Below are positions 1,020-35,441 of a DNA stretch of 64,000 nucleotides, in pieces. The notes below the pieces were generated by a model that ran no database searches, was not told the origin of the DNA, and saw only the letters and a program-made list of their open reading frames with translations. Both the position numbers and the translations under genes were made by a program. Source of the DNA: Physcomitrium patens (taxonomy: Eukaryota > Streptophyta > Bryopsida > Funariales > Funariaceae); contig NC_037266.1 in assembly GCF_000002425.4 (NCBI RefSeq), positions 4,777,443 to 4,841,442 on the forward strand, in the 5' to 3' direction. Every line of letters starts with the position of its first letter. The stretch's first letter is position 1.

Positions 1020-1411
1020 TATTAGGGACATAATCCTTAGAACCTTCTAGAGACAAGTTTCTAGAATCTTCTAGAAGCAAATCTCTGGAACCTTCTAGAA
1101 GCTTCTTAGTTGGTAGAAGATATTAGAGACATAGTCCTTAGAACCTTCTAGAGATAAGTTTCTAGAACCTTCTAGAAGCAAGTCTCTGGAACCTTCTAGA
1201 AGCTTCCTAGTTAGTAGAAGTTACTTGAGAAGCTTTCTAAATAGAAGTATATATTGGAATCAAGGTTGAAGAGATCTTCAGTCTCGACAATACATCTCTT
1301 GAAGCTCTAGCTCACCTCTCTGGTATTATTCTCATCTGATTAATCTAATACTTGTCAGTTCTTCTTGAACTTCTTGTTAGATCTCGAGTCTGTATTTCTA
1401 TGTCCGTGACA
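1020..1411 (+). repeat. 5' LTR of element A
   Basis: 392 bp, the same length as the 3' copy at 20581-20972. It begins TATTAGGG (the canonical TG is mutated to TA here; the 3' copy keeps TGTTAGG) and ends GTCCGTGACA. Its first 202 bp are a tandem duplication of a 101-bp unit (1020-1120 and 1121-1221) that carries the heat-shock-like blocks. A TATA box lies at 1248-1255. Confidence 0.92.
1059..1255 (+). promoter_or_regulatory. Heat-shock-element-like array and TATA box in LTR A
   Basis: Four runs of four alternating TTC/GAA blocks with exact 2-nt spacing occur at 1059-1076, 1088-1105, 1160-1177 and 1189-1206, for example TTCTAGAACCTTCTAGAA. This fits the consensus heat shock element nTTCnnGAAnnTTCn. 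The array lies 40-190 bp upstream of TATATATT (1248-1255). Binding by heat shock factors is inference from the motif; known heat-activated plant retroelements such as ONSEN carry such sites in their LTRs. Confidence 0.75.
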
Positions 1412-1413
1412 AT

Positions 1414-1447
1414 TTGTCAAGACTGCACTCACCTCATATATCAGAGC
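1414..1447 (+). other. Candidate minus-strand primer sites of element A
   Basis: TTGTCAAGACT (1414-1424), 2 nt after the LTR, is the reverse complement of AGTCTCGACAA (1280-1290) with one mismatch. The 1280 site is 32 nt downstream of the TATA box start, where transcription should begin. This matches the self-priming layout of Tf1. Further on, 1436-1447 keeps TATCAGAGC, most of the initiator-Met tRNA primer-binding consensus TGGTATCAGAGC. Confidence 0.7.
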
Positions 1448-1715
1448 TAGTTTCTTCTTTGTTAGAGTGTGGATTACCCCTTTGCTTGGAAGTGTACTAG
1501 CATTTTAGAGGTTGCGGATTACCCTCTTCTAAACTGATACTTCTTTTGTTATAATATTGGACTCTTATTCTTCTTGGAGAGAGTGGATTATCCCTTTTCT
1601 TGAAGCTCTTAAGGCATTTTAGAGGTTGCGGAGTACCCTCCTCTAAATCAATATTGTCTTCTTGTAGAGTCATTTCTGTCCTTCTTTTAGAATGGCTGGA
1701 GGCCAAGACATTAGT

Positions 1716-1770
1716 ATGACGGAAAGTTCAGAGTTCAAGTTGGATTCTATCATGAATGCCCTTGCTACGT
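1716..1770 (+). pseudogene. Element A gag, first fragment
   Basis: Start of gag, aligning with the ATG at 28584 of element C. An earlier in-frame ATG lies at 1692. The frame is cut after ACGT (1767-1770) by the 5' LTR of B1. The rest of gag lies at 10254-10530 (inverted) and from 15893. ACGT reappears as ACAT (reverse complement of 10527-10530) at the left end of B2. Confidence 0.85.
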
Positions 1771-2965: not shown

Positions 2966-3035
2966 AAAATAGTGAACCCGAAGTAAAAGCTTGAGGTGGA
3001 AGGTATTGGATTTCGGTTGATTTTATCTTTATTTT

Positions 3036-8400: not shown

Positions 8401-8885
8401 AAGATGGATTGTCAAGAAAAGAACTTCTGGCTATTACGATTCGACAATTGAAGTAAAGAACAGAAGATGTCCAGATAGCATTGGGAAGGTTAAAAAGAGC
8501 AAGGTTACAAAACAAGGCACGATTTGATAAGCAACATCGATTGAGACCAAAAGCAATCGAGGAAGGTGACAGGGTACTTGTTTATGACAATAGTCTGGAT
8601 AATCAACATAGTACTTTGCGGAAATTTTCAAAACGTTGGTTTGGACCATATGTAGTAACAACTATTCATGATAATGCAACTTACTCGTTACGGGAGTTAG
8701 ATGGTACAAAATTGAAAATACCAATTGCAGGGAAGCGAGTAAAAATATTTAAACGAAGACACGCGGAGATGAATATGGAGGACCTTAATGAAGGTATAGA
8801 GATTCCGCAGTAAGAAGATGAAAGTGATTTGGATAATGAAGGTAACGAAGACGAACTGGACAAAGACGTAGAGGATATATTCTGA
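5410..8885 (+). pseudogene. B1 pol: reverse transcriptase, RNase H, integrase
   Basis: A 936-codon frame (5646-8456) preceded by a short linker with a TAA at 5592-5594, and followed in the same frame after TAA (8454-8456) and a stop at 8811-8813 to TGA at 8883. RT shows the LFTVPKKNGSLRFIQD stretch and the catalytic FLDD in place of the usual YxDD (about 6533). RNase H follows (VDAS, then ETDC). Integrase has an HH-CC finger with the second Cys missing, the core acidic residues in VVDLV, TTDHGE and the GNAKSERG context, and a basic C-terminus without a chromodomain. The FLDD, the DHIQDCEKIL stretch and the overall style recall Ty3/gypsy elements of basidiomycete fungi, from memory only. Confidence 0.85.
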
Positions 8886-8935
8886 ATCAAACAGCAATTG
8901 GGTAAATTGGTGCATATCGGAGGATGCACAGGTTC

Positions 8936-8947
8936 AGAGGGGGTGGA
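8936..8947 (+). other. Polypurine tract of B1
   Basis: AGAGGGGGTGGA lies directly before the 3' LTR and would prime plus-strand DNA synthesis. The same tract occurs in B2 in reverse complement at 11758-11770. Confidence 0.75.
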
Positions 8948-10253
8948 TGTCGCATTGTAACAAGAGTATACAGTGAAAATATAAAGAAAGGGGACTTTTA
9001 TTAATGTTCAGTTACCTCAAATATTGGGAGCAACGACCAACTCCAGTGCAAATACTGAGTGGCCAGGTTCAGTCACTCCATTACAGTCAGCCACGGCATA
9101 CTGAAATGCTCCATTCGATTCCAATAACGGGAGTCAGCAGGAAGAGAAAGGACCAATTCACACGACGGGTGAGCCTGGTTCGAAGAGCCAATTAGATCCA
9201 ATTTCAAGAATCCAATCCGGGTCCTCTTATCCAATATGAGACCTGCATTGGTCGGGCAACCCAATGCAGTCTAATTACGAGAAAATCCAGGTCTTACTAT
9301 GGGCCTCAGCCAGTCTGACGCGAAGGACCAATTTGATCCAATTACGGGAATATCTAGGTCTTACTACGGGCCTCTTAGCCAATCTGACACGAGGACCAAT
9401 TTGACCCAATTACGTGAACATCCAGGTTACTACGGGCGTCTTATCCAATATGAGACCTGAATTGGTCGGGCGACTCAATGTGGACCCGAGTACGAGGTTT
9501 CGATTCTGTTTCAGGTTGTCTTATTCTCTGTGCCATTTCAGGGAACATTGTTTTCGGCAAATGGATCTCTTAAAAGTAAAAACGGAGGAGAAAGCTCTGA
9601 CGGCGAGAGCCAATTTCAGATCCAAGATGAAAGATTGAAGAAATTCAGAATTAAGGTTAAGAAAGGAGGGGGGAGAGAGAGGTTTTTTTTTATGGGGATT
9701 TTTGAAGGATCGGAGGGGAGCTTCATGCTTCGGAGCGGGGAAAAAAGACGGAGAATTGGGTTTTTTTTTCTTCATAGGGTTTTGAGAAGACTGAGGCAAT
9801 CATTGCTGAAGTCAGTGTTGTAATGGTGAATCGAGATTTTTAATGAAGTGGGTTTGATTACTCTTGACTGTTTTGTGAAATCGAGTTACGTCTGTGATTG
9901 AAGAATTAAAAGGGTGTCTATAGGATTGAGTATGCGGAGTGAATGAAATTTATTGGGTTAATCTAACAAGACAGTCAGTGGATACAAGATCGTAAGTACA
10001 AAGCGGAATCGAAGATTAACAGTTTGGATTGTTCGGAGTTCTCTGTAACATCTAGAGACCTACCGGCTGGGGCAAAAAGGACTTCGGCAAGCAGTCGAAG
10101 GACATCTGTATAGATTTACAGTGTATTCTTGCAGTCGTTTATATTCCAACAGTCAAAAATTGATAGACTACTTGACTATTGGCGAATCTCCATATTACTT
10201 TCTACAGTCAGACGCCCGGTGCATTCTCAAGCAGGAAAGCACATAATACGACA
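8948..10253 (+). repeat. 3' LTR of B1 (subtype Y)
   Basis: 1306 bp, starts TGTCGCATTGTAAC, ends ATAATACGACA. Its distinguishing sequence (GGAGGGGGGAGAGAGAGG near 9664, then a T-run and ATGGGGATTTTTGAAGG) matches the right LTR of B2 (14521-15892, reverse complement), not the 5' LTR of B1. Confidence 0.88.
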
Positions 10254-10530
10254 CCGTTGGATAGTGTTAGGGCTGTAAAACTGTTATCAACCTGATTTGG
10301 TTGACGAATCCTCATAATTTGGAATGCGTACCATTGAACTTGTCCGGAAGTCTAACTCGGGGCTCCTTATGTTGTAGAACCAACGGTGCTTGTCGAACCT
10401 GAGGTAAAGTTGCTTCTCCAAGTGTAGAAGTTTGAGGCTGGTGCAACTTAGATTGTGCCATCCCAGATGCTCCATCATTATGAAGCCTTGCCACGACTCC
10501 TTCAATCTCTGTAATTCTTTGCAATAATGT
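10254..10530 (-). pseudogene. Element A gag, middle fragment, inverted
   Basis: The reverse complement of these 277 bp aligns to element C gag from about 28640 to 28912 (for example ATTGAAGGAGTCGTGGCAAG against ATCGAAGGAGTCATGGTAGG in C). It is exactly the part missing between 1770 and 15893. The left end CCGT is the complement of the ACGG found at 15893-15896. The right end ATGT is the complement of ACAT, matching ACGT at 1767-1770 with one transition. Confidence 0.9.
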
Positions 10531-11757
10531 TGTCATATTACATGCTTTCCTGCTCAAAAACGTGCCAGATGTTTGACTGTAGAAGGTAGTATGGAGATTC
10601 GCCAATATTCAAGCAGTCTATCAGTTATTGACTGCTGGAATATAAACGACTGCAAGAATACACTGTAAATCTATATAGATGCCCTTCGACTGCTCGCCGA
10701 AGTCCTTTTTGCCCCAGTCGATAGGTCTCTAGACGTTACAGAGAACCCCGAACAATCCAAACTGCTAATCTTTGATACCGCTTTATACTCACGATCTTGT
10801 ATCCATTGACTGTCTCGTTAGATTAACCCAATAAATTTCCTTCACTCCGCATACTCAATCCTATAGACACCCTTTTAATTCTTCATCACAGACGTAACTC
10901 GATTTCACAAAACAGTTAAGAGTAATCACACCCACTTCATTAAAAATCCTGATTCACCATTACAACACTAACTTCAGCAACGATTGCCTCAGTCTTTCCA
11001 AAACCCTATGAAGAAAAAAAACCCAATTCTCTGTCTTTTTTTCCCTTCTCGAAGCATGAAACTAGCTCTCTGATCCTTCGAAATCCCCTCAAAACTTATT
11101 CTCTCCTCTCATTTCTTAACCTTAATTCTGAATTTCTGCAATCTTTCGTCTTGAATCCGAAATTGGCTCTAGCCGTCAGAGCTTGGATCCAAAATTGGCT
11201 CTCGCCGTCAGAGCTTGGATCCAAAATTGGCTCTCACCATCAGAGCTTTTTCCTCCGTATTTACCTTTAAGAGATCTTTTTACCGAAAGGACGTTCCCGG
11301 AACAACACAAAGGATGGAACAACCAGAAACGGAATCGGAGCCCCGTAATCGGGACCACATTGAGTTGCCCGACCAATTCAGGTCTCATATTGGCTAAGAG
11401 GCCCATAATAAGACCTGGATGTTTCCGTAACTGGGTCAAATTGGTCCTTCGCGTCAGATTGGCTAAGAGGCCCGTAGTAAGACCTGGATTGGATGTCTTG
11501 AAATTGGATCCAATTGGCTCTTCGAACCAGGCTCACCCGTTGTTGAATTGGTCCTTTCTTTTCTTTGCTGACTCCCGTTATTGGAATGGAACGGAATATT
11601 TCAGTATGCCCTGACTGACTATAACGGGGTGACTGACCCTGGCCTCCCAGTATTTGCACTGGAATTGGTCGTTGCCCCCTATATTCAAGGTAACTAAATA
11701 TTAATAAAAGTCCCGTTTTTTTATATTTTCACAGCATACTTGTATTACAACACGACA
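10531..11757 (-). repeat. Left (3') LTR of B2 (subtype X)
   Basis: 1227 bp. In reverse complement it starts TGTCGTGTTGTAATAC and ends GTAATATGACA. Its body matches the 5' LTR of B1 closely, including the AGAGGAGAGAATAAGTTTTG stretch. It has one more copy of the short CTCTGACGGCGAGAGCCAA unit, which explains the length difference. Confidence 0.87.
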
Positions 11758-11817
11758 TCCACCCCCTCTGAACTCGTGCATCCTCCAGTATGCACCAATT
11801 TACCCAGTTGCTGTTTG

Positions 11818-12076
11818 ATTTAGAATATATTCTCTATATCTTTGTCCAGTTCGTCTTCGTCACCTGCATTATCCAAATCACATTCAATCCCTTGCAGCGG
11901 ATCTAACTTGTGTAATTCTCCTTCAATATTATATAATCTTTTTCTTTCTTTTCTTTTAAAATCATCAACTTTCTTATACATAATATTTCCATTCTCCAAT
12001 ATACCAATAAAACTCGCATCAAAGGCACCTTCATCTCGCAAGAGTACCTCCTCTTTTGTACCTCCATAATCTCGCT
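11818..12076 (-). pseudogene. B2 pol remnant with internal deletion
   Basis: The minus-strand frame reads from the linker after protease (RDEGAFDASFIGILENG) through YNIEGELHKL straight into the last codons of pol (DELDKDIENIF, stop). In B1 these two parts are separated by about 3.2 kb (roughly 5590-8820). The junction is in frame. Deletion within the element is inferred by comparison with B1. Confidence 0.85.
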
Positions 12077-14450
12077 TTACAGTGGTACCTCCCCAAAATC
12101 CTTAAATCTTTCAACAATCTTTGGCAATGGTTTTTCCCTCAACCTATCTCGATTCCATTCATGGTTAGGAGGTACTAATAGAAATTGTACAGCTTTCCTC
12201 CCATCCTCGCTCCGTACCCTTGCATAAGCAGAACCATCATCAAGTACTTTTGTTTCCATCCGTATTGCCATAATATAAGATTGTCCTAAAATCAACGGAT
12301 AAGACGTTGTATCTTGAACAAAGAAATGTTGCTCCGTCGCAACATCCCCAATCCGAATTTTGACATCTGGACAAGTTCCATATAATTCGCCCCATGTGTT
12401 ATTAGCTGCTTCTATTGCCCATCCATGTTCCATGTCAATTGGCCATTTTTGCTTCTTATAAAGATCTTTAGACATGAGATTTATTTCAGAACCATGGTCG
12501 ACTAAAGCAACAATTGGTTCTTCTATATCTTCTACTTTCACCAATACCTCAATAGTTGCCCTTGTCCAATGCTTTCGAGTATAATGGCTCAAAGTTTCCA
12601 TTTCCTTATCACTATAATCTTTGAAACGTACTCGTTGATTATACCCATTCTTTTTATTTGTTGGTTGGTTGTAACCAATATCAACCTCTTCTTCATCTTT
12701 ATATATTCTTGCATCAATAGCATGACTCATTCCAGTTTCGTCCATTAATTGCCTCTTTCGCTTAATGCTGTCAATGATAACATCATGAAATTCCTTCTTT
12801 GCAATTCCCAAAACTTCTTTCAATGTGAATTCCACCTTAGCGTTTAATATACGTTCTTCCAACACCCCTTTCAAATTTGTTGCCGCTTTAATGTCAGAAA
12901 GTAACTTATAAGCAATTGATTTGCCCTTATCTTTTGTCTCTTTTGTTTTTTCTTCCAATGATGCTGAAGTATACTTTACAGGCAATTCTTGTGAAGTTGC
13001 CTCCCGAGCCTTGTCTCCTCGAGTTTGCCTCTTAGAAGAATTTCCTTCTCTAGTATCATCAAAATTTCTTCGTCTCTTTTCTTCCATCAAAGCTTCATGT
13101 TGGCTCTTAGCAATATATACATGAACTGAAAGAGACTCAACAGGATCCTCCCAACCTGTTGCACCTCGTATTGTAGCTGCAGTCCTCAATAACGCTTCTC
13201 GAGGTAATTTCCATTATTGCATTGTAGAAATGGCAGAAGCCCAAAACTCACTAGTTTTCGTACTTCCACCAATTTCATCATCTACTCTAGCACAATAACT
13301 TACACTTTCTCGTGGTGTTGTTTCATGCTCTTTTAAGTAATCTTGAATCAATGCTCTCATTCCTTCCTTACCAAAATTGGTTTGAAGAAGATCCTCCCTA
13401 TCTTTTAATGCTATCTTTCTATCTTTCTAGCAAATAATTCCTTGCCGTATCATATTATTAAATTCATTGCAATCTTTTCTAGTGTGTGAAGTGTCATCAC
13501 ACCAAATGCATCTTTCTACATATCCTTGCTTCGAAATATTCTTCGAATTGTTTGTAGAAGTATTCTCTTCAAGTCTTGCCAATTTGATTTGAAGATCTCG
13601 CATTTCTCGTATAATTTCTTCCATCTCCATATCTGCTTTCTTTGATAAGGATGTCGAAGGTTGAACTGTAGGCATTGTTGGTGGTGTTATACGTATTGGA
13701 GCTTTGGGTGCTTGTACTGTTTTCGGAATATTGCTCCTATCCTTCCTCCTTTTTCTTTTTGTAAGCAACCCCATCGCATCTTCAACGTTCTTCCACTTTG
13801 TTGTCAATCCTTCATCTTCTTCTTTGTCTTCAAGAAGGAGTTCTAATTTCCCTTGCAATTCTCCATCAGCAGCTTGAAGAAATAGATCAACTTTGTTCGG
13901 CTCCAATGTCAATTTTTCTACCTTCGATAATTGAGAGTACTGCCTCTCAAATTCCCTTAGTAGCTCTGTTGCTTGCAAATTCTTATTGGGCCGTTCAATC
14001 CATTCCAGAAACAGCTTCTTAGTAATGCGATCAGCATCTTCCAAGAAATATTCGTCTTTCAATGCATGTGAAAAAAACCTTCCATGAATTCCTATAACGA
14101 TCCGTAATCGATGTAATATAGTCTCTTATCTCCGGTATTGTGGCAAGTCCAAATAATTCAACCATTTTCTTCTCAGAAATCCGATTTAATTCCATTTCAC
14201 AAACATAACATCTTAAATACCTTGAAATATTCCTTCCATCAAATTGATCAATTTTATTGACCACTGCTTGCAATGCTTTGGTTGCCAAAGCTTTCTTTTG
14301 ATCATTGCTTTGCTGTTGCTGCATTGATAATGAGAAGGCTTGAAACATACTAGCAATAGACGGATCCATGTGCATACCTTGTCCTTTAGAAGAATCCCCA
14401 CCAGAAATTCCTCCCAAAAATCCTTCAAAATTTTTATTTTCGTTTTCCAT
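12077..14450 (-). pseudogene. B2 gag and protease region
   Basis: Gag starts MENENKNFEGFLGG at 14450 and stays open for 139 codons, with an intact glutamine run (SMQQQQSND) where B1 has a stop. It then shows the same T7 +1 frame change as B1, the same 211-codon frame with CIWCDDTSHTRKDC (14062-13427), the same in-frame TAG, and the same frame ending EVPL before pol. One extra stop near 13215 (TGG CAA region) shortens the protease frame, which begins at 13189 and holds ALVDHGSEINLM. Confidence 0.85.
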
Positions 14451-14520
14451 AAAATAAAGATAAAATCAACCGAAATCCAATACCTTCCACCTCAAGCTTT
14501 TACTTCGGGTTCACTATTTT

Positions 14521-15892
14521 TGTCATATTACGTGCTTTCCTGCTCGAGAACGTGCCGGGCGTCTGGTTGTAGAAGGTAGTATGGAGATTCGCCAATAGTC
14601 AAGCAGTCTATCAGTTTTTGACTGCTGAAATATAAACGACTGCAAGAATACACCGTAAATCTATATAGATGCCCTTCGACTGCTCGCCGAAGTCCTTTTT
14701 GCCCCAGTCGGTAGGTCTCTAGATGTTACAAAGAACCCCGAACAATCCAAACTGTTAATCTTCGATTCCGCTTTGTACTTACGATCTTGTATCCACTGAC
14801 TGTCTTGTTAGATTAACCCAATAAATTTCATTCACTCTACATACTCAATCCTATAGACACCCTTTTAATTCTTCAATCATAGATGTAACTCGATTTCACA
14901 AAACAGTCAAGAGTAATCAAACCCACTTCATTAAAAATCTCGATTCACCATTACAACTCTGACTTTAGCAACGATTGCCTCAGTTTTCGCAAAACCCTAT
15001 GAACAAAAAAAAATCCAATTTTTCCATCTTTTTTCCCCGCTTCGAAGCATGAAGCTCTCCTCCGATCCTTCAAAAACCTCCATAAAAAAAAACCTCTCTC
15101 TGCCCCCGTCCTTTCTTAATCTTAATTTTGAATTTCTTCAATCTTCCGTCTTGGATCCGAAATTGGCTCCAGCCGTCAGAGCTTAGATCCGAAATTGGCT
15201 CTTGCCATCAAGGCTTAGATCCGAAAATGGCTCTCGCCGTCAGAGCTTTCCCCTCCGTTTTTACCTTTAAGAGATCCATTTACCGAAAACAACATTCTCT
15301 GAAATGGCATAGAGAATAAGACAGCCTGAAATAGAGTCGAAACCCTGTACTCGGGTCCATATTGAGTCGCCCGACCAATTCAGGTCTCATATTGGATAAG
15401 ATGCCCATAGTAATCTGGATGTTTGCGTAATTGGGTCAAATTGGTCCTCGCATCAGATTGGCTAAGAGGCCCGTAGTAAGATCTAGATGTTCCCATAATT
15501 GGATCAAATTGGTCTTTCGCGTCAGACTGGCTGAGGCCCATAGTAAGACCTGGATTTTCTCGTAATTAGACTGCATTGGGTTGCATGACCAATGCAGGTC
15601 TCATATTGGATAAGAGGACCCGGATTGGATTCTTGAAATTGGATCCAATTGGCTCTTCGAACCAGGCTCATCCGTCGTGTGAATTGGTCCTTTCTCTTCC
15701 TGCTGACTCCCGTTATTGGAATCAAATCCAGCATTTCAATATGCCGCGGCTGACTGTAACGGGGTGACTGAACCTAGCCACTCAGTATTTGCACTGGAGT
15801 TGGTCGTTGCTCCCAATATTCGAGGTAACTGAACATTAATAAAAGTCCCCTTTCTTTATATTTTCACGGTATACTCGTGTTACAACACGACA
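14521..15892 (-). repeat. Right (5') LTR of B2 (subtype Y)
   Basis: 1372 bp; in reverse complement it starts TGTCGTGTTGTAACACGAG and ends GTAATATGACA. It carries the subtype Y body found in the 3' LTR of B1. The flank ACGG (15893-15896) is the duplicate of the reverse complement of 10254-10257. Confidence 0.88.
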
Positions 15893-16510
15893 ACGGAGGA
15901 GTCACGTGTTGGGCTTGTTGGAACCTTACTTACAGGACAAGCTCTATCATGGTTTGCTCTTTTGTTTGAGAAACGATCGTCCATACTAAACAACTTTGAA
16001 ACCTTTTTGGAGGCGTTTGCAGAAGCATTTGGTGAACACGACAAGGTTCGATGGACTACAACAAAGATCCGATCACTATGACAAGGGATGCACTCTACAT
16101 CAGTCTATGCATCAGACTTCAAGCAATTAGTATGTGACATCAATTGGGATGAAGAAGCATTGATGAGTCAATTCTATTGGGATTTAAAGGACGATGTGAA
16201 GGATTTGCTGTTAACTTTTTCTGATCCACAAATGTTAAACAAAGCTATTAGCCAAGCTGTGAAGTACGATAATTGCCTATTTCAATGCTGCCAAGACCAA
16301 CGTTCAAGACAACATACGATTCGCCACGCCCCAACTATATCGGCAAGCAGTGTGAATTCACATTCAAAGGTAGAAGACATGCAAATTGATGCGGTACGTG
16401 TCAAATCTCTTACTCTAGAAGAAAAAAAGCGGCGTATGGAGGAAGGTCTATGCTTGTATTGCGGTGAAGAAGGCCACAAAGTTGGAAACTGCCCCAAGAA
16501 GCAAAATTGA
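15893..16510 (+). pseudogene. Element A gag, last fragment
   Basis: Resumes A gag at the position equal to about 28909 of C. CGA to TGA at about 16079 interrupts it. The frame from 16088 to 16510 is then open to a zinc knuckle, CLYCGEEGHKVGNC, the CCHC nucleic-acid-binding motif of gag nucleocapsid. Confidence 0.88.
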
Positions 16511-16569
16511 TGTATTGTCAAGACTAGGGGCACGTTTATTCAAGAAAATAAGGATGCCCAGCCACAATA

Positions 16570-19500
16570 GGAACCGTGTAGCTGGACAGTGAAATATCGC
16601 AACAACAACCAGGTTCCTTTCTTTTCGCTCAACCTGCCCTTTGTTTTATAATCCCTTTGTTTATTGGCCTTCAAAAACTAAGAATCTTAGCATTATTAGA
16701 TTCAGGAGCATCTGCTTGTTTTTTAGACGAAGAATTTGTGAAGTATCAAAAGATCTCTTTAGTACAAAAATCCAAACCTGTTCATGTTGAGGTCATAGAT
16801 GGGCGACCTTTATTCTTTGGTAGTATCACCCATGAATCAGAACCTATAGAAATGACGTTTAAGGGCCATAGTAGTCATATTATTTTCAATATTATTAGAA
16901 CCCCATCAAATCCTGTTATTCTTGGTCTTTCCTGGTTAGAAAAGCATAACCCATCCATAGATTGGAAGTTGCGGAAGATGACCTTTCCCACAAAATTATC
17001 CAAGAGCAAGCCTAGTAGAAAACCCCAAATAGAGAAATCCTTATTTATTGGAGCAAGAGCGTTTATAAGATCATCCAAGGAAGGCACACCGTTTTTTTTT
17101 TATGCGGCTCCAACTATCGGGGAGAAGATCTCGACAACAAGTATACCGAAGCAATATAAGGATTTTAAAGACGTGTTTCAAAAGAAAAATACCAATATGC
17201 TACCGGAACACAGACTATATGATTGTGCCATAGACTTATAAGAAGGAGTACAACCGCCTTTTGGCCCAATCTATAATCTATCGTAGACGGATTGGCAGAG
17301 TTGCGAAAGTACATCGATGAGAATCTAGCCAAGAACTTCATCCGTCATTCAAAATCATCAACTGGAGCACCCATCTTATTTATAAAGAAGAAAGATGGCT
17401 CATTATGGATGTGTGTGGACTATCGAGGTCTCAACAAGATAACAAAGAAGAATCATTACCTGTTACCCTTGATTTCTGGTCTCTTAGAATAACTTGGACA
17501 TGCAAGGATTTTTACAAAAATTGATCTAAGGGGAGCTTACAACCTCGTACGAATCAAGGAAGGAGATGAGTAGAAGATAGCGTTCCGTACAAGGTATAGC
17601 CATTTTGAGTAAAATGTCATGCCCTTTGGTCTTACCAATGCTCCAGCGGCCTTTCAACATATGATGAATGACATTTTCCGAGAATACCTTGATAATTTTG
17701 TTGTCATCTATTTGGATGATATTTTGATATTCTCCAAAAATGAGGAAGAGCATGAAAAGCACGTTCGCTTGGTCTTGGAGAAACTATGCAAGTGAGGACT
17801 ATATGCCAAGTTAGAGAAGTATTTATTTCACCAAATAGAGATGGAATTTTTGGGGTTCGTTGTAACTACGGAAGGCTTGAAGATGGATCCCAAGAAGGTG
17901 GAAGCAATCGTGTCCTGGGAGGTTCTGAAGACGGTGAAAGACGTACAATGCTTTCTTGACTTTGCCAACTTCTATCAGATCTTCATGAAGAATTACTCTC
18001 AAATTGCTGCTCCTCTCACTCGGTTGACATGCAAAGATAAGCTGGAATGGGGACCTCTAGCGGAGAAGGTGTTTCAAGACCTAAAAATCGCATTTACTAT
18101 AGCTCCAATCTTGGTACATCCAGACTTTACAAAGACCTTTTATTTAGAAACTGATGATTCGGATTTTACCTTAGGAGCTATACTTTCAGAAATAGGAGAA
18201 GACAAGAAGCTCCATCCAGTTGCATTCTATTCTCAAAAGTTCTCTGCTACTGAAATCGATTATGAGATCCACGATAAGGAACTTCTTGCTATAGTGGATT
18301 CTTTCCAAGAATGGCGTCACTTTCTTGAAGGAGGTGCACACCCAATGATCATATACACAGATCATAAGAATTTGGAGTATTTCATGTCGGCTCGAGTTCT
18401 AAATCGACATCAAGTTCGGTGGAGTATATCGCTATCTAGGTTCAATTTTGTTATCACTTATTGACCTGGAAAGTAGCAAAGACTATCTGATGCCTTATCG
18501 AGGAGATCGTATCTTGTACCAAAGGTTGGAGAAGTAGTGTTTGATCAACAATGTATGACATTGTTAAAGCCAAAGCAATTTTGGCTTTGTGCTATTATTG
18601 TGCTAATTGATGCAAACTTCCTGAATCAGATACGTGCTGTGACCATTGAAGATTCAGTAGCCATTAATATCAAGCAATGTACCAATGACGACAAGTTCAA
18701 GGTGGAGAGAGATCTTTTATACTTTGAAGAGCGGTTGTATATCCTAAAAAGATCAGCACGACTCCGAGTTCTTCAATCTCGCCACGATTTTCCAGCTGCG
18801 AGACATTTTGGATTCAACAAGACCTTGGAGTTTATTTCTCGAGATTTTTGGTGGCTCCAAATGTAAAAGGATGTGAAAGATTTTTTTCTCTCTTGTGACA
18901 TCTGTTCAAGATCCAAGAATCCTTGACATCGCCTTTATGGACTTTTACAGCCATTGCCGATTTTACATCGACCATGGTCTTGAGTTTCCATGGACTTCAT
19001 CACGGACCTGCTATCATCAAACTCATTTGACAACATCTTTGTTGTAGTAGATCCGCTAAGAAAGATGGCGCACTTTGTCCCTTGTAAGAAGACATCGTCT
19101 AGTGAAGTCACAGCAAGGCTCTTTCTCGATAATGTGTATCAATATCATGGACTACCAGATGATATCGTATCAGATCGAGGAACCCAGTTTGTATCAAAGT
19201 TTTGGAGATCTCTCTTTGAAATACTGAAGGTGGATATCAAGCTTTCTTCGGCTTTTCATCCTCAAATTGACGGCCAAACGGAACGGGTGAACCAAGTCTT
19301 GGAACAATACTTACGATGCAGCATCAACTATTAGCAAGATGATTGGACTACATATCTGTCGCTAACCGAGTTTGCATATAACAACACCCTCCATGCATCG
19401 ACTCAATACATACCATTCTTTTCCAACTATGGATATCATCCGAAGCTTGATTTATTGAGTCCATCAACAAATAACAATCCAGCAGCTGAAGGATTTGCGA

Positions 19501-20040
19501 AACAACTATCAGAGCTTCAAAATACATTGAAGCTTCAATTACAATCCGCTCAAGAATCCTACAAGGCGTCTGCAGATAGATTTCAGAATCAAGCACCTAC
19601 TTTCAAAATTCGAGATAAAGCATGGCTTCTTCGATGGAATATCAAGACCAAGCGACCATGTGATAAATTGGACTATCGAAGATTGGGACCATTTATCATC
19701 CAGAAGCAAATCAATGCAATGGCGTACCGTCTGGAATTACCGGCTTCTATGAAGGTACATCCAGTCTTTCATGTTTCTCTGTTTGAGCCTTATCGAGAGT
19801 TGTCTTTTCCTGGAAGAGTACAATGTCCGCCACCTAGTATTGAGATCGAGAACCATGAGGAATACGAGGTTGAAAAGGTACTAGATTCACGGCAAAGGTG
19901 GGGCAAGTTGGAGTATCTTGTTCATTGGTACAGCTACAACATTAATGAGCGAATGTGGGAGCCAACTGAAAATCTCGCCAATGTGCCATAAAAGGTACAG
20001 GAGTTTCATCAACAACATCCTCATAAACCTAAGTCGGTTT
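16570..20040 (+). pseudogene. Element A pol with chromodomain
   Basis: Order: protease (LLDSGASACFLDE, about 16696), RT (catalytic [11 protein letters not shown], about 17710), RNase H (ETDDSDFTLG, IHDKELLA, TDHKNLEYF), integrase (LSSAFHPQIDGQTERVNQV) and a C-terminal chromodomain (EYEVEKVLDSR, LVHWYSYNINERMWEP, about 19860-19980). At least ten in-frame stops, for example CAG to TAG at 17283 and TGG to TAG near 17571, as judged against C. The chromodomain would have tethered integrase to methylated histone H3 in heterochromatin (family knowledge). Confidence 0.9.
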
Positions 20041-20179
20041 GATGATAGCTTCCTTCTGAAGCTTGCTCACCCAAGAATATAAGAAAGGAGGAGAGCACCA
20101 CCAAAATTCGTAGTTGATGTAGTTATTTTCTCCAAGATAAAATAGAATTTTTTTAGTAGCCATAGTTTGGTCTTCTAAT

Positions 20180-20533
20180 ATGGATAGCCAAGAGATAGAT
20201 ACTATGTCAGTCAAATTATCTCAACCGACTAGCTCATGAAGGTGACCCCGAGATGAAGAACTACCTACACTACGACGACGACGGAGGATATCGAGTAACC
20301 GATCACTGGTGATTATATTTGAGTCTGAGCCTACTTACGATGATCAGCCAGAAGGCGTGTTTGCAAGACAATTTCACAATGAGGACACGGAACTTCATAC
20401 TTGGTCAGAAGTTGAAGGAGTGGGCGACTACCATTGGTTTCAAGGGCTGATGAACCACTTGCCTCGTGAACAACAATTGGAGTTCATAGCAGACGTTATG
20501 TGACAGATCTTCATTTTTTTACATTGGTACTGA
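20180..20533 (+). pseudogene. Element A ORF3, decayed copy
   Basis: The frame ATG (20180) to TGA (20531-20533) is 118 codons and aligns without frameshift to the 116-codon ORF3 of C (33188-33535), apart from two codons near the N-terminus. Three internal TGA codons all stand where C has CGA, as expected from C to T decay. The core FHNEDTELHTWSEVEGVG and LPREQQLEFIADVM is kept. No known domain recognised. Confidence 0.8.
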
Positions 20534-20566
20534 TCAACAACATTACTTCTCAGAGACCTCGAAGCT

Positions 20567-20580
20567 AAAGGAAGGAATGA
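20567..20580 (+). other. Polypurine tract of element A
   Basis: AAGGAAGGAATGA-type purine run ending at the first base of the 3' LTR; plus-strand primer site of the element. Confidence 0.7.
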
Positions 20581-20972
20581 TGTTAGGAACATAATCCTTA
20601 GAACCTTCTAGAGACAAGTTTCTAGAACCTTCTAGAAGCAAGTCTCTGGAACCTTCTAGAAGCTTATTAGTTAGTAGAAGATATTAGAGACATAGTCCTT
20701 AGAACCTTCTAGAGATAAGTTTCTAGAACCTTCTAGAAGCAAGTCTCTGGAACCTTTTAGAAGCTTTCTAGTTAGTAGAAGTTGCTTGAGAAGCTTCCTA
20801 AATAGAAGTATATATTGGAATCAAGGTTGAAGAGTTCTTCAGTCTCGACAACACATCTCTTGAAGCTCTAGCTCACCTCTCTGGTATTGTTCTCATCTGA
20901 TTAATCTAGTTCTTGTCAGTTCTTCCTGAACTTCTTGTTAGATCTCGAATTTGTATTTCTGTGTCCGTGACA
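20581..20972 (+). repeat. 3' LTR of element A
   Basis: 392 bp, starts TGTTAGGAAC and ends GTCCGTGACA, followed by TSD TATGG. It keeps the 101-bp tandem unit, the TTCnnGAA blocks, a TATA box (20809-20815) and AGTCTCGACAA at 20841-20851, again 32 nt after the TATA start. Confidence 0.92.
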
Positions 20973-27464: not shown

Positions 27465-27868
27465 TGTTGTATTGTAGCATGACTATATAGTAAAAATATA
27501 ATTAAAAATAAAATTTTAATTAATAATTAATTATCTTGATTTTATAATAATTTAAGATATTTAAACATGATTTTTATAAAAATCTTTTAGTTTATTTTCT
27601 TAGCTTAATAGTTAATAGATTAAAGATTGGTTAATAATTTTATCTTTTAGATTATAGAGACTCTTTTACTGCCTTAGAAAGACCATAAATTGATAAAATC
27701 AAGATAAAAGTAGTAAATAATTAGTATAGTTGATACTAAAGTTAGGTTGAGGATAAGGTTGGGTGAAAAAATTGTGTGATATTCTAATATATGTGAAATT
27801 TTACATACACTTAGCATAATTGGATGTGCTAAGTGTATATGAAATTTTGTGATAATCTAATAGTGTAG
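27465..27868 (+). repeat. Decayed B-like LTR, left part
   Basis: TGTTGTATTGTAGCATGACTATATAGTAAAAATATA aligns with the start of the B LTR (TGTCGTGTTGTAACACGAGTATACCGTGAAAATATA), with mostly C:G to T:A changes. Element C inserted at 27868; the rest is at 34009-35441. Confidence 0.65.
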
Positions 27869-27905
27869 TGTCATGGACATACATTGGAAGATTCTTCGAA
27901 TATTC

Positions 27906-28120
27906 TTCTAGAATATTCTCTAAAGATTCTCTAAAGATTCCTTTAGAAGGTTCTAGAAGATTCTTAGAATATTCCCTAAAGATTCTCTTAGAAGGTTCTA
28001 GAATATTCTGATAGATTCTAGGAAGTTGCTCGAGAAGTTTCCTAATTAGTAGAAGTTGTTGGAGAAGCGTCCTACTTAGCGGAAGTAGCTCGAGAAGCTT
28101 CCTATTCAGTAGTATATATA
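27906..28120 (+). promoter_or_regulatory. Heat-shock-element-like blocks and TATA box in LTR C
   Basis: TTCTAGAATATTC at 27906-27918 (three blocks), GAAGGTTCTAGAAGATTC at 27946-27963 (four blocks) and GAAGGTTCTAGAATATTC at 27991-28008 (four blocks), all with 2-nt spacing. TATATATA follows at 28113-28120. The repeated unit CTCTAAAGATT between the blocks varies in copy number between the two LTRs. HSF binding is inferred from the consensus. Confidence 0.75.
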
Positions 28121-28144
28121 GGAGTCGAGGTTGAAGGGTTCTTC

Positions 28145-28155
28145 AGTCTCGACAA
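28145..28155 (+). promoter_or_regulatory. Predicted transcript start of element C
   Basis: AGTCTCGACAA begins 32 nt downstream of the TATA box start, the normal plant TATA-to-start distance. It is the reverse complement of the 11 nt at 28283-28293. The same 32-nt spacing occurs in all four LTRs of A and C. Confidence 0.65.
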
Positions 28156-28282
28156 CACATCTCTTGGAGTTCTAGCTCACCTTTCTGGTGTTGTTCTTGT
28201 ACTCATCTGTTTAATCTAGTTCTGCCACTTCTTCTTGAACTTCTTGTTAGATTTCAAGTCTGTATTTTGTGTCCGTGACAGT

Positions 28283-28293
28283 TTGTCGAGACT
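28283..28293 (+). other. Self-priming site of element C
   Basis: TTGTCGAGACT, 2 nt after the 5' LTR, pairs perfectly over 11 nt with AGTCTCGACAA (28145-28155); pairing stops at exactly 11 bases on both sides. In Tf1 of fission yeast the first 11 nt of the mRNA fold back onto such a site and prime reverse transcription. The function here is inference from layout and exact complementarity. Confidence 0.75.
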
Positions 28294-28303
28294 ACATTTT
28301 CAC

Positions 28304-28315
28304 TGGTATTAGAGC
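28304..28315 (+). other. tRNA-iMet-like primer site of element C
   Basis: TGGTATTAGAGC differs by one base from TGGTATCAGAGC, the usual plant initiator-Met tRNA primer site, but lies 23 nt after the LTR instead of 0-5 nt. Element A keeps TATCAGAGC at the same place. Confidence 0.55.
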
Positions 28316-28583
28316 TAGTTCCTTCTTTTTAGAGAGTGGATTACCCCTCTTCTTGAAGGTGTGCTAGTGTTTTAGAGGTTGCGGATTATCCTCCTCTAAA
28401 CTGATATCTCTTCTTTCTCAATATTGGAGCCTTATTCTTCTTGGAGAGAGTGGATTACCCCTCATCTTGGAGTCTTAAGGCGTTTTAGAGGTTGCGGAGT
28501 ACTCTCCTCTGAACCAATATTGTCCTCTTGTCAAAACTCTTTTTTCTTCTTTTTGAAGGTTAGCCGAAGGTTAAGACGTTAAA

Positions 28584-29585
28584 ATGGCTGAAAGTTTGGA
28601 ATCCAAACTAGACGCCATCATAAATGCTCTTGCCTCGTTGTCACATAGGACAACAGAGATCGAAGGAGTCATGGTAGGACTCCATAACAATGGAGCATCT
28701 GGGATAGCGCCATCTAAAGCATATCAGCCTCAAACTTCTGCGCCAGAAGAAGCAGTTCTACCTCCATTTCAACAAGATCGAGTAGTCCTACAACGAAAGG
28801 AGCCTCGAGTTAGTCTTCCGGATAAGTTTGATGGAACTCGTTCCAAGTTTCGTGGTTTTGTCAACCAAATCAGGTTGATAATAATTTTACAGCCCGAACG
28901 TTATCCGACGGAAGAAGCGCGTGTTGGGCTTGTTGGAACCTTGCTTACAGCACAAGCTCTGTCTTGGTTTACTCCCTTGTTCGAGAAGCGATCGCCAATC
29001 CTGAGCAACTTTGAAACGTTCTTGGAGGCGTTTGCAGAAGCATTTGGCGAGCATGATAAAGTTCGATGGGCTACAACAAAGATCCGATCGCTACGACAAG
29101 GAACACGCTCTGCATCAGTCTATGCCTCGGATTTCAGATAATTGTCAAGTGACATTAATTGGGGTGAAGAGGCGTTGGTGAGTCAGTTTTATTGGGGCTT
29201 GAAGGATGATGTGAAGGACTTGTTGTTATCTCTTCCTGATCCTCAAACGCTCAACGAAGCTATTAGCCAAGCTGTAAAGTGTGACAACCGCCTATTCCAG
29301 CATCGCCAAGACCAACGTCCAAGACACCAAATGACTCGTTACGACGTGACTATGTCTCCAAATAGCTTAAACTCACATTCGGAGGCAACAAACATGCAAA
29401 TCGACACGGCGCGTGTCCGATCTCTTACTCCAACAGAGAAGAAACGGCGTATGGAGGAAGAGTTACGTTTGTACTGTGGAGAAGAAGGTCACAAGGTTGG
29501 AAATTGCCCAAAGAAGCAAAATTGGCACCCTGTCAAGACTAGAAGTGCGATGATTCCGGAAAACGACGACGCCCAGCCACAGTAG
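28584..29585 (+). pseudogene. gag: Element C gag (one premature stop)
   Basis: 334 codons including the final stop, from ATG (28584) to TAG (29583-29585). One internal TAA at 29139-29141 stands where A has CAA. The protein has the capsid-like retrotrans_gag region (LVGTLLTAQALSWF, VYASDF) and a C-terminal CCHC zinc knuckle, LYCGEEGHKVGNC. Pol lies in another frame just downstream, so a frameshift or reinitiation is needed to express it. Confidence 0.92.
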
Positions 29586-29590
29586 GAACC

Positions 29591-32500
29591 GTGCGGCTGG
29601 ACAATCTAATATCACGACAACAATCAGGTTCCTCCTTCTCTGTCCAACCTGCCCGTTGTTTTACAATTCCTTTGTTTTTAGGCCCTCAAAAACAAAAAAC
29701 TTTAGCTTTATTGGATTCGGGGGCATCTACTTGTTTTTTAGATGAAGAGTTTGCTAAACGCCACAAGATCCGTTTAGTACAGAAGTCCAAACCTGTTCAC
29801 GTAGAGGTGATAGATGGACGACCCTTATTGTCAGGCAACGTTACCCACGAATCAGAACCTATAGAAGTGGTGTTTAAGGACCATAGTAGTCACGTTATTT
29901 TTAATATTATTAGAACCCCATCAAGCCCTGTTATCCTTGGTCTTTCTTGGTTAGAAGATCATAATCCGTCCATTGATTGGAGGCTACGAAGGATAACATT
30001 TCCTGAAAAAAATAATAATAAACCTGTTGGTAGAACCTACATGAAGAAATCCATGTTTATTGGAGCGAGAGCGTTCCTAAGATCGTCCAAGGAAGGCGCA
30101 CCATTTGTCATTTATGCAGCTCCAACTAGCGGCGAAAATATCTCAACATCGAATATACCAGAGCAATATAGGGATTTTGAAGACGTGTTTCAGAAGAAGA
30201 ACGCCGATATACTGCCGGAACATCGACCATATGATTGCGCCATAGACTTAGAGGAAGGAGCGCAACCACCTTTTGGTCCAATATACAACCTATCGCAGAC
30301 GGAGTTGGCAGAATTGTGGAAGTACATCGATGAGAATCTAGCCAAGAATTTTATTCGACATTCAAAGTCGCCAGCTGGAGCACCAATCCTATTCGTGAAG
30401 ATAAAGGATGGCTCACTGCGGATGTGCGTGGACTACCGAGGACTCAACAAGGTGACCAAGAAAAATCGCTATCCCTTACCTTTGATCTCCGGCCTCTTAG
30501 ATCAACTTGGACGTGCAAGGATTTTTACAAAGATTGATTTAAGAGGAGCCTACAACCTTGTGCGAATCAAAGAAGGAGATGAATGGAAGACAGCCTTTCG
30601 TACAAGGTATGGTCATTTTGAGTACAATGTCATGCCTTTTGGTCTTACCAATGCTCCAGCGGTCTTTCAGCATATGATGAACGACATCTTTCGGGAGTAC
30701 CTCGATGACTTTGTTGTCATCTATCTGGATGATATTTTGATATTTTCCAAGAATGAAGAAGAACATGAGAAGCACGTTTGTTTGGTTCTTGAAAAACTAC
30801 GCGAACGAGGACTCTACGCCAAGTTGGAGAAGTGTCAATTTCACCAGAATGAGATGGAATTTTTGGGCTTCATTGCGACTACAGAGGGCTTGAAGATGGA
30901 TCCAAAAAAGGTAGAAGCAATTATATCTTGGGAAGTTCCGAAGACGGTTAGAGATGTTCAGTGTTTTCTTGGATTTGCTAACTTCTATCGGATCTTCATC
31001 AAGAATTATTCTCAAGTTGCTGCACCACTCACGCGTCTAACAAGCAAAGACAAGCTCGAATGGGGATCACAAGCAGCAAAAGCATTTCAAGATCTCAAGA
31101 CGGCATTCACTACGGCTCCAATCTTGGTACACCCTGACTTTGCAAAGGCTTTCTATTTAGAGACCGATGCTTCAGATTTTGCTTTGGGAGCTGTGCTTTC
31201 ACAGATGGGCATAGACAAGAAGCTTCACCCAGTTGCGTTCTATTCACGGAAGTTCTCTGCTGTTGAGATCAGCTACGAGATCCACGACAAAGAGCTGCTT
31301 GCTATAGTGGATGCCTTCCAAGAGTGGCGTCACTTCCTGGAAGGAGCTGCACATCCAGTGACTGTTTATACGGACCACAAGAATTTGGAGTACTTCATGA
31401 CAGCTCGAATTTTGAATCGTCGTCAAGCTCGATGGAATATGTCTCTATCACGATTTGACTTTATTATCACCTACCGCCCTAGAAAACAGCAAGGATTATC
31501 TGACGCATTATCGAGGAGATCGTATCTTGCGCCAAAGGCTGGAGAAGCAGCGTTTGATCAACAATGTACAACATTGTTGAAACCAAAAAAATTCAGGATT
31601 TTTGCTACTGTTGCAACTATCGATGACGGCTTCCTCAGCGAGGTACGTACTGCGACCATTGAGGATTCTATAGCTCTTGACATCAAACAACGTGTCGATA
31701 ATGACAAGTTTAAGGTGGAAGGAGATTTTCTGTATTTTGAGGAGCGGTTGTATATCCCGAAAGGACCAACTCGACTCCGAGTACTTCAATCTCGCCACGA
31801 CTTTCCAGCTGCGGGACATTTTGGATTCAACAAGACTTTGGAGCTCATTTCACGAGATTTTTGGTGGCCCCAAATGTGGAAGGATGTGAAGGAATTTGTC
31901 CTTTCTTGTGATGTTTGTTCAAGATCCAAGATCCCTCGACATCGTCCGTATCGACTTCTCCAGCCATTGCCTATTCCGCACCGACCATGGTCTTCAATTT
32001 CTATGGACTTCATTACGGACCTACCGCCATCGAATTCATTTGACAGCATCTTTGTTGTGGTGGATCGATTTACAAAGATGGCGCATTTCGTGCCTTGCAA
32101 GAAAACATCGTCAAGTGAAGACACCGCAAGACTCTTTCTCGATAACATATATCGTTATCATGGCCTACCAGATGATATCGTGTCGGATCGAGGTACTCAA
32201 TTTGTATCCAAGTTTTGGAGGTCCCTCTTTGAGATATTGAAGGTGGATATTAAGCTCTCTTCGGCTTTTCATCCTCAAAATGACGGTCAAACGGAGCGGG
32301 TGAATCAAGTTTTGGAGCAATATTTACGATGCAGCATCAACTATCAACAAGATGATTGGACTGCATATCTACCGCTTGCTTAGTTCGCATACAACAACAC
32401 TCTTCATGCGTCAACTCAACAAACACCATTCTTCTCCAACTACGGATACCACCCCAAGCTCGATTTATTGAGTTCTTCAGCAAATAACAACCCAGCAGCT

Positions 32501-33061
32501 GAAGGATTTGTGAAGCAACTATCGGAGCTTCAAGCGAAGTTGAAGCTTCAATTGCAATCTGCCCAAGAGAGTTACAAGGCATCTGCAGATAAATATCGAA
32601 ATGAGGCGCCTACTTTTCAAGTTGGAAGTAAAGTATGGCTTCTTCGACGGAATATCAAGACCAAGCGGCCATGTGACAAATTGGACTATCGGAGATTAGG
32701 GCCATTTGTTATCGAGAAGCAGATCAATCCGGTGGCATATCGTCTGGAGTTACCAGCTACTATGAAGGTACATCCAGTCTTTCACGTGTCTTTGTTGGAA
32801 CCTTATCGAGAGTCAGCTTTTTCCCAAAGAGTACAAAGTCCGCCACCAAGTATCGAAATTGAAAACCATGAGGAATACGAGGTGGAAAAGGTACTAGATT
32901 CACGGCGTAATAGGAGAAAATTGGAGTATTTAGTGCATTGGAGTGGATACGACATCAATGAACGAACGTGGGAGCGTGCCGAAAATCTTGCCAATGCACC
33001 AAAAAAGGTACAAGAATTTCATCAACGATATCCTCATAAACCTAAGCCGATTCAACGATAG
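29591..33061 (+). pseudogene. pol: Element C pol: protease, RT, RNase H, integrase, chromodomain
   Basis: A 1157-codon frame including the terminal stop, with one internal TAG (32381-32383; A has GAG) in the integrase. Protease LLDSGASTCFLDE; RT with YLDDILIFS; RNase H with ETDASDFALG, IHDKELLA and TDHKNLEYF; integrase with an H-H-C-C finger (HDFPAAGH to CDVC) and core acids in SMDFITD, VSDRGTQF and DGQTERVNQV. The C-terminal chromodomain (EYEVEKVLDSR, LVHWSGYDINERTWE) retains the Tyr, Trp and Tyr positions of the methyl-lysine cage. The first start in this frame is GTG at 29591; the true entry is probably by frameshift from gag. Confidence 0.93.
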
Positions 33062-33571: not shown

Positions 33572-33585
33572 AGAAGAGGAGGTGA
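33572..33585 (+). other. Polypurine tract of element C
   Basis: AGAAGAGGAGGTGA directly before the 3' LTR. Confidence 0.8.
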
Positions 33586-34008
33586 TGTCATGGACATACA
33601 TTGGAAGATTCTTCGAATATTCTTCTAGAATATTCTCTAAAGATTCTCTAAAGATTCTCTAAAGATTCTTTTAGAAGGTTCTAGAAGATTCTTAGAATAT
33701 TCCCTAAAGATTCTCTTAGAAGGTTCTAGAATATTCTGATAGATTCTAGGAAGTTGCTCGAGAAGTTTCCTAATTAGTAGAAGTTGTTGGAGAAGCGTCC
33801 TAGTTAGCGGAAGTAGCTCGAGAAGCTTCCTATTCAGTAGTATATATAGGAGTCGAGGCTGAAGGGTTCTTCAGTCTCGACAATACATCTCTTGGAGTTC
33901 TAGCTCACATTTCTGGTGTTGTTCTTGTACTCATCTGTTTAATCTAGTTCTGCCACTTCTTCTTGAACTTCTTGTTAGATTTCAAGTCTGTATTTTGTGT
34001 CCGTGACA
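33586..34008 (+). repeat. 3' LTR of element C
   Basis: 423 bp; contains one extra 11-bp CTCTAAAGATT unit compared with the 5' LTR. TATA at 33841-33848 and AGTCTCGACAA at 33873-33883. Followed by TSD TGTAG. Confidence 0.95.
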
Positions 34009-35441
34009 TGTAGTTGCAAGATATCTGGATTTTCATACAAGAACATATTAGGAGTTGGTAATTTAGAGCTGGATAGGTTTTCTATGCTATCTAAAGATCT
34101 ACTAGTCAGATCAAAGTGAAATTTGGCATAGTATTAGAAAACTTAAAGATCAAGCTAGATACCAATTTTGAGTTGAAATTAACAGTTAGAGAAGAAAAAA
34201 TCATTGTTGGAACATTTACATCAACTTTTAAGTTGACGGCCAAATAATATCAATGTGGTTTTTGGGCATTTTCTCACGATTTGTAAGTTGGATTGAGATG
34301 AATTCTTTTGAGTACATAGAAGACTTATAGTAGTATTTATGTACAAAATTTTTCTCCAAGTCGACAATTCGATAAGAAGCTACAACTCACTAAAGCTTAT
34401 TGATTAAGATTAGGACTTACAAAAAAAATTCAAAATTACCTAATTATGAAAGTAATAAGGCACTTGGAATTTATATATAGTTGAAATTACTAAGAAGAGT
34501 ATTTTTGAACACTTTATATTAGATTTAAGCACTTTTGAATTAAAATTTAAATTATATTCTTTTTATAAAAGTAAAACATATTAGAATTCTTGGATACTTA
34601 TAAAATATAATTCTACCTTCTATCGTAAGATGCTTAGTGCATTTTTAAACAAAAAAAAACACATGATATGACACCAGTTACCAACTTGGGTCAAAATCAG
34701 ATCTTTAGATACAACATCGCATACTTTTGGTGATTCTAAGGTTCTTTGATGGATTAGAGAGTAGGATTTGAGGGCAAAATTCAAAAGAAAATTTTTAAGT
34801 ATTGGTTTTATGTCAATGAAGTTAATATTCAGTTTTTGGGAGATTTTCAAAGTTAGTGATTTTCTTAGTTAGATTAGATTTTAAAAAAAAAATTATGTTT
34901 ATAAAATTGAGGGTTTCTTGATATCTGTGATGGTTGTATAGGTGAATTTTCGGCAGTATGTTGGTATTCTAGTTATTAGTGTGTGTGCAAATTTTGACGC
35001 CAATTGAACAATTAGATCAAAGTGTGTGAAGTTTATTGTGGATTGAGGTCTTAAGAATTGGAATTCAAGGGTCAATGAGTATTTTTAAGATCTTTAGCAA
35101 TCTATTAATTGGATTGGAATGAATTTTTTTGTGTAGAAACTAGACTTGATTTCTAATAGTTTAAATGTCTTTTAAAGGAAATTCAATGGTTCTTGAAGGA
35201 GATATTGACACTGAAAGTTCAACATTCAGATTTTGAATTTCTTTACGATTTCTTTATGCTTCTTTCATAATTTTTTTGAGGTTTCTATGGATTTGATTAA
35301 AGCTTTATTAAAATTATTAAGGTTTAATTGGAGTTATTTAGGATTTGATTAGATTTAGAATCTTATTGTCACAATTTTCCTTCTACCTTCTACAGCTAGG
35401 AGCTCGGTGCATTCTCAAGCAAGGCTTTACGTAATATGACA
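34009..35441 (+). repeat. Decayed B-like LTR, right part
   Basis: The last 60 bp (TTCTACAGCTAGGAGCTCGGTGCATTCTCAAGCAAGG to TAATATGACA) match the end of the B LTR (CCCGGTGCATTCTCAAGCAGG to ATACGACA). The middle is too diverged to align by eye and, at about 1.8 kb in total with the left part, the unit is longer than the B LTRs, so it may be another subfamily or hold a further insertion. Confidence 0.6.

Follow-up and report, generated by a model that had tools for sequence, protein, structure and literature searches.

The retrotransposon Tf1 of fission yeast primes reverse transcription with the first 11 nt of its RNA, which is cut between bases 11 and 12, and self-priming has also been proposed for Tcn1 of Cryptococcus (PMC7175516). 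Tf1 requires two side helices as well, and the structure has been called a 'pretzel' (PMC10085805). For plants, self-priming has been predicted for the majority of the Tcn1 elements, which are found in moss and club-moss, and an aromatic-cage chromodomain motif was present in 95% of the Tcn1 elements (Neumann et al., 2019; PMC6317226). In the accessible text on SM-Tcn1, neither a tRNA site nor self-priming is reported as found (Novikova et al., 2010; PMC2864245). As far as the accessible parts of these publications go, self-priming in plants thus rests on prediction. A literature search limited to main texts and a minority of the subscription papers retrieved no study of moss elements that deals with paired changes or LTR ends. 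RLG1 of Physcomitrium patens is a very abundant chromodomain gypsy element with 5092 complete elements, its tree does not clearly track plant relationships, and the words 'priming', 'tRNA' and 'Tcn1' are absent from the main text of that article (PMC7466625).

Element C, found in a moss genome, is a chromodomain Ty3/gypsy element, as judged from its Pfam domains. It is located in the window, i.e., the whole stretch of 64,000 nucleotides that was analyzed. Like Tf1, it has a chromovirus pol, and the predicted first 11 nt of its RNA are the complement of a site that closely follows the 5' LTR. The likeness is one of description, and in contrast to Tf1 the host is a moss, the leader hairpins are repeated, and of the two 'pretzel' side helices just one has support, which was obtained for C, A and part of F. 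The moss and club-moss Tcn1 clade, as described in the accessible text of PMC6317226, shares with element C the host range of a non-seed-plant chromovirus, the 5-bp target site duplication (TSD), the aromatic cage and predicted self-priming; while that text contains the prediction only, element C adds paired changes and LTR ends. PpatensLTR2 (GQ294565; named in PMC10085805) and SM-Tcn1 are Tcn1-like chromoviruses of moss and spike-moss, respectively, and can be likened to element C by description. SM-Tcn1 has a similar layout, with an LTR of 440 bp, TG...CA ends and a 5-bp TSD, but its authors found no self-priming according to the accessible text (PMC2864245), whereas the signal is clear in element C. 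RLG1 is also similar by description, being a chromodomain gypsy element, and its 5092 elements are of the same order as the 5472 junctions reported below.

We conclude, with a probability of about 0.9, that element C is a Tf1/sushi (Tcn1-like) chromovirus that primes its minus-strand DNA with its own RNA. This conclusion is based on the pairing, its in-step change between subfamilies, the spacing, and the LTR ends. It is the best reading because compensatory changes, the conserved TATA-to-start and LTR-to-site spacings, and the LTR ends all fit. The sequence-only reading of the window had already proposed a plant chromovirus with Tf1-like self-priming, and the paired changes, the spacing and the LTR ends now support this proposal. 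It described the group as best known from fungi and vertebrates, but a plant host is not unexpected, as self-priming had already been predicted for moss and club-moss Tcn1 elements in the accessible text of PMC6317226. The mechanism was thus already known as a prediction, and element C represents a well-supported instance of it.

Element C and its 11-nt pairing

The features of element C are summarized in Table 1. The two LTRs are identical at 407 of 412 aligned bases, with 11 gap positions. Pfam domains for gag, protease, reverse transcriptase (RT), RNase H, integrase and chromodomain are ordered along 28584-33061, in three ORFs in this copy. The chromodomain (YEVEK...HWSGYD) aligns with solved chromodomains, and its aromatic cage is complete, with Y, W and Y at the positions that form the histone-methyl-lysine cage in HP1. 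In an RT tree of 46 rows, which was midpoint-rooted and contained no named Tcn1 or Tf1 sequence, element C stands beside chytrid and frog elements, and three angiosperm rows are separate from it (100/99). A scan of viral contigs revealed no relative. The window also contains a urea-transporter gene, the closest named matches of which are from mosses (Ceratodon purpureus 83%, Sphagnum 76%); P. patens as the host, and RLG1 as the family, would be compatible with this.

Table 1. Features of element C and of the related element A; positions are those of the window.
Feature	Position	Strand	Basis
Target site duplication TGTAG, left	27864..27868	.	same 5 bp at right end
5' LTR of element C, TG...CA	27869..28280	+	alignment of both LTRs
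TATA box TATATATA	28113..28120	+	start 32 nt 5' of predicted transcript start
Self-primer and predicted transcript start AGTCTCGACAA	28145..28155	+	exact complement of 28283-28293; covaries with partner in subfamily E
2-nt spacer GT, LTR end to primer-binding site	28281..28282	+	also 2 nt in 12 subfamily E copies
Putative self-primer-binding site TTGTCGAGACT	28283..28293	+	sequence; pairing in family copies
tRNA-iMet-like 12-mer TGGTATTAGAGC (TGGTATCAGAGC in 26 of 28 C-type copies)	28304..28315	+	core within predicted leader structure
Predicted pairing partner of 28305-28312, leader hairpin	28401..28408	+	minimum-energy fold
gag ORF, DUF4939 / Ty3_capsid / Retrotrans_gag	28584..29141	+	ORF and Pfam
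pol ORF: protease, RT, RNase H, integrase zinc finger and core	29591..32383	+	ORF and Pfam
Integrase C-terminal part: SH3_Tf2-1 and chromodomain with Y-W-Y cage	32468..33061	+	Pfam, chromodomain alignment
Purine run AGAAGAGGAGG, likely polypurine tract; 3 nt TGA, then 3' LTR	33572..33582	+	sequence
3' LTR of element C; its end is the base that self-priming predicts	33586..34008	+	LTR alignment
Target site duplication TGTAG, right	34009..34013	.	same 5 bp at left end
Self-primer AGTCTCGACAA in the 5' LTR (1020-1411) of related element A	1280..1290	+	LTR alignment, occurrence count
Putative primer-binding site TTGTCAAGACT of element A, one CpG-to-CpA change	1414..1424	+	sequence

The claims of the sequence-only reading about the geometry of the signal were confirmed: each 11-mer is the exact reverse complement of the other, the downstream one lies 2 nt past the 5' LTR, and the upstream one begins 32 nt downstream of the first base of the TATA box. 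The LTR boundary was taken from the alignment of both LTRs and the TGTAG duplications, and because TGTAG is present on both outer sides the LTR end is fixed independently of the pairing. The pairing is exactly 11 nt long, as had been stated, because the bases on both flanks are mismatched (28144 C versus 28294 A, and 28156 C versus 28282 T). On the + strand of the window the self-primer sequence occurs four times, once in each LTR of elements A and C. A match of at least 11 nt between the LTR and a site that starts within the first 10 nt after the LTR was obtained in 21 of 20,000 dinucleotide shuffles, and a match anywhere in the first 40 nt in 130 of 20,000; these counts do not yet require that the partner is located at the expected transcript start. 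The latter number indicates that 11 nt alone are not overwhelming, and it had to be considered that the match is due to chance or to shared ancestry and has no role.

Copies of the subfamilies C, A and F

Perfect pairing was found in 27 of 28 C-type junctions, a count that is biased because these were the first 28 of 40 places ranked by similarity to the window. The corresponding numbers are four of nine for A-type and five of six for F-type junctions; eight of 40 A-type places, one of them with a second junction, and six of 42 F-type places were read. All misses in C, A and F are single changes. Five of the nine A-type junctions contain one uncompensated CpG change in the binding site, and in copy L019 the self-primer half is changed. 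Inside a subfamily, the copies therefore show decay rather than covariation.

Paired changes between subfamilies

Leaders of an abundant and distant subfamily, E, turned up in 20 arbitrary 10-kb stretches. Its LTR was not found by Blast searches with the R-U5 region of C or A, and the RT of the E copy L046 is 77.9% identical to that of element C over 380 aa. The layout of E comprises a TATA box, 31 nt, ACTCTTGTCAA, a U5 ending with CA, 2 nt, and TTGACAAGAGT; the terminal CA has decayed in copies L041 and L043. In comparison to C, three of the 11 pairs (2, 6 and 8) are changed on both sides, and all 11 pairs are kept. A family-wide lack of compensatory changes had been named by the sequence-only reading as a refutation; this test was run and passed, as E contains the changed pair in the same geometry. 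Five junctions with both halves were present in the twenty stretches, and four of them pair perfectly, while L047 has decayed. Twelve further E copies, out of 40 E-type places, all pair perfectly and have an LTR-to-site spacing of 2 nt. The TATA-to-start spacing is 30-32 nt in the other subfamilies that were read.

For seven junctions, 96.1% of the cells pair, compared to 32.5-42.9% when the partners are slid by one to three columns. The covariation score of these seven sequences is 0.277, versus 0.120 (sd 0.035) after shuffling, and none of 500 shuffles was as high. Two of the five measures, the number of pairs with a change on both sides and that of further pair types, did not exceed the shuffles (290 and 455 of 500, respectively), as is expected if C and E represent two states. 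Genome-wide, the exact E junction pattern TTGACANNTTGACAAGAGT occurs 3490 times and the pattern left open at the changing positions 5472 times, and both reversed controls gave 0 occurrences; the listed places of the open pattern, all on one contig, split into two linked classes. A scan for a TATA box plus an 11-mer pair without a G+C filter yielded 379 matches, versus 657 (reversed) and 596 (complemented). It was used for individual junctions only, because it was swamped by AT repeats and the null was no cleaner.

In two E copies, L095 and L096, the binding site reads TTGACGAGAGT, with G for A, and a G.U pair is kept. Such a pair is the step expected between C-G and U-A. A third, intermediate class of 11-mers, for which these two places were the candidates, was rejected: their self-primer halves are E-type, and one has a further change.

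In a second subfamily, the same two positions are occupied by another 11-mer pair with three double changes, and the site is retained at thousands of junctions; both findings argue against chance or shared ancestry as the origin of the complementarity. This explanation is refuted in practice by covariation, and its probability is negligible. Thousands of junctions with at least two 11-mer classes also constitute a natural paired-change test in moss elements.

LTR ends as a probable record of the priming site

The primer sets the cDNA end. An LTR end was found at 17 of 20 C-type 3' ends that were probed, the exceptions being L050, L056 and L064. All 17 terminate with the CA that is also the end of the 5' LTR; they read GTGTCCGTGACA, followed by other sequence. 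A 3' end was assigned to the copy of its 5' junction by the expected distance and by matching duplications, the latter in six copies that were checked; the 5-bp duplications match in five of these C-type copies, and the sixth has one mismatch. Five further C/A-type LTR ends that are not followed by a binding site all have the same stop, one with TA for CA, and three of three LTR ends of subfamily E stop at the same place. Some of these other C/A-type and E ends may belong to solo LTRs. The LTR ends are those predicted by self-priming, if it is allowed that 2 nt are trimmed by the integrase.

Folding of the leader RNA

The 11-bp stem of R and the primer-binding site (R:PBS) is present in the minimum-energy fold of element C and of ten of 13 other leaders, nine with 11 pairs and one with 10; it is absent from this fold in the other three. 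Its mean pairing probability is at least 0.69 in 12 of the 13 leaders and 0.15 in L078. The leader of L046 forms no stem when it is folded only to 58 nt past the LTR, and the stem forms with 240 nt of leader. The side helices were compared with shuffles. For the 3' flank duplex of the 'pretzel', 0-19 of 300 shuffles were as good in C, A, C/A and one F copy, which supports it there; it is unsupported in the F copy L082 (89 of 300) and in three E copies (65-222 of 300). For the 5' flank duplex, 276-298 of 300 shuffles were as good in C, A and F, where it is thus unsupported; with 26-41 of 300, it is weak in E. According to the predicted folds, TATCAG has CTGATA, some 100 nt further downstream, as its partner in C, where one pair is G.U, and in eight of the 13 other leaders. 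L046 has five of the six pairs, L007 a more distant partner, and the pairing is absent from L043, L070 and L078. In those C, A and C/A copies that were tried, the adjoining GAGCTAG is predicted to pair with CTAGCTC, which is located in R.

The leader at 28315-28583 is made up of repeated hairpin units, AGAGTGGATTACCCC ... GAGGTTGCGGATTACCCTCCTC. C and A have two of these units and an F copy (L078:1340-1760) has three, and they possibly have a role in packaging.

Several hairpins of the leader are strong, and conserved pairing by itself names no function; the 11-nt pairing might therefore be real and serve RNA packaging, dimerization or translation control instead of priming. However, in both subfamilies the site follows the LTR end after 2 nt, which is where a primer must lie, and the LTR ends agree with this position, so that such a function in place of priming seems very improbable.

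A possible tRNA primer

The 12-mer TGGTATCAGAGC begins 23 nt after the LTR. Of 28 C-type copies, 26 have it without any change, and the window copy and L027 each differ from it at one position. The 12-mer fits the initiator tRNA-Met (tRNA-iMet). The sequence-only reading did not mention this site, which is weighed here as a rival: the initiator tRNA could prime reverse transcription at the 12-mer, and the pair of 11-mers would be only RNA structure. The conservation of the 12-mer speaks for this, as does the description of the same letters as a conserved primer-binding site of plant retrotransposons (PMC7215508). Yet priming by the tRNA would place the cDNA end 23 nt past the LTR, and the 17 of 17 3' LTR ends, which lie at the expected distance from copies with a perfect 12-mer, are at the self-primer end; no other LTR end that was read corresponds to the tRNA site either. 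In addition, the TGG is missing from the A, F and E copies read, which have TATCAGAGC-like letters, and TATGAGAGC is present in 12 of 12 E copies. The arrangement by which a tRNA-primed chromovirus is recognized, a site directly after the 5' LTR with matching ends, was not found in element C. The core of the 12-mer can be accounted for by pairing within the modeled leader, and because the core and the adjoining letters pair in the folds, the 12-mer is better read as leader structure, although these pairings would be compatible with tRNA. The tRNA-iMet as the main primer was therefore rejected on the basis of the 3' LTR ends and the fit of the 12-mer to the leader structure, and we regard it as extremely unlikely.

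There is also little probability that the C subfamily has two primer sites in one RNA structure, with the tRNA as a helper or back-up primer; if this were true, the subfamily would represent an element between two priming modes. A tRNA-like leader motif could also mislead primer annotation. In element B of the window (2965-3005; DUF4100-type ORF), the 40 nt that follow the LTR end, TATGACA, contain no tRNA-iMet-like letters.

Proposed mechanism of self-priming

For element C itself, we infer the following course of self-priming. Transcription would start at or very near 28145, as the TATA spacing suggests, and nucleotides 1-11 of the RNA would fold onto 28283-28293, just beyond U5. By analogy to Tf1 (PMC7175516), the RNase H of the element would then cut after nucleotide 11, and the freed 3' end would be extended over the 2-nt spacer into U5 and R. 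The cDNA would end 2 nt past the LTR, and these 2 nt would be removed by the integrase. Moss elements offer a tractable place for measuring self-priming in a plant.

Further observations on the LTR elements

Element A (1020-20972) has the TSD TATGG. It is split by two inverted copies of a different LTR element, at about 1771-10253 (+) and 10522-15892 (-), which are nested close to where the internal region of A begins. The copy L032 (1242-1628) has a C-type R-U5 (99%) together with an A-like U3; this mosaic suggests recombination or template switching between subfamilies. The motif TTCnnGAAnnTTC, which resembles what we take to be the heat-shock-element consensus, has 25 sites in the window, and 23 of them are clustered in the U3 parts of the four LTRs of A (1020-1411 and 20581-20972) and C, compared to a shuffle mean of 1.29. 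A repression of RLG1 by heat shock has been reported for P. patens (PMC7466625), and the clusters would be at odds with this repression if element C is RLG1.
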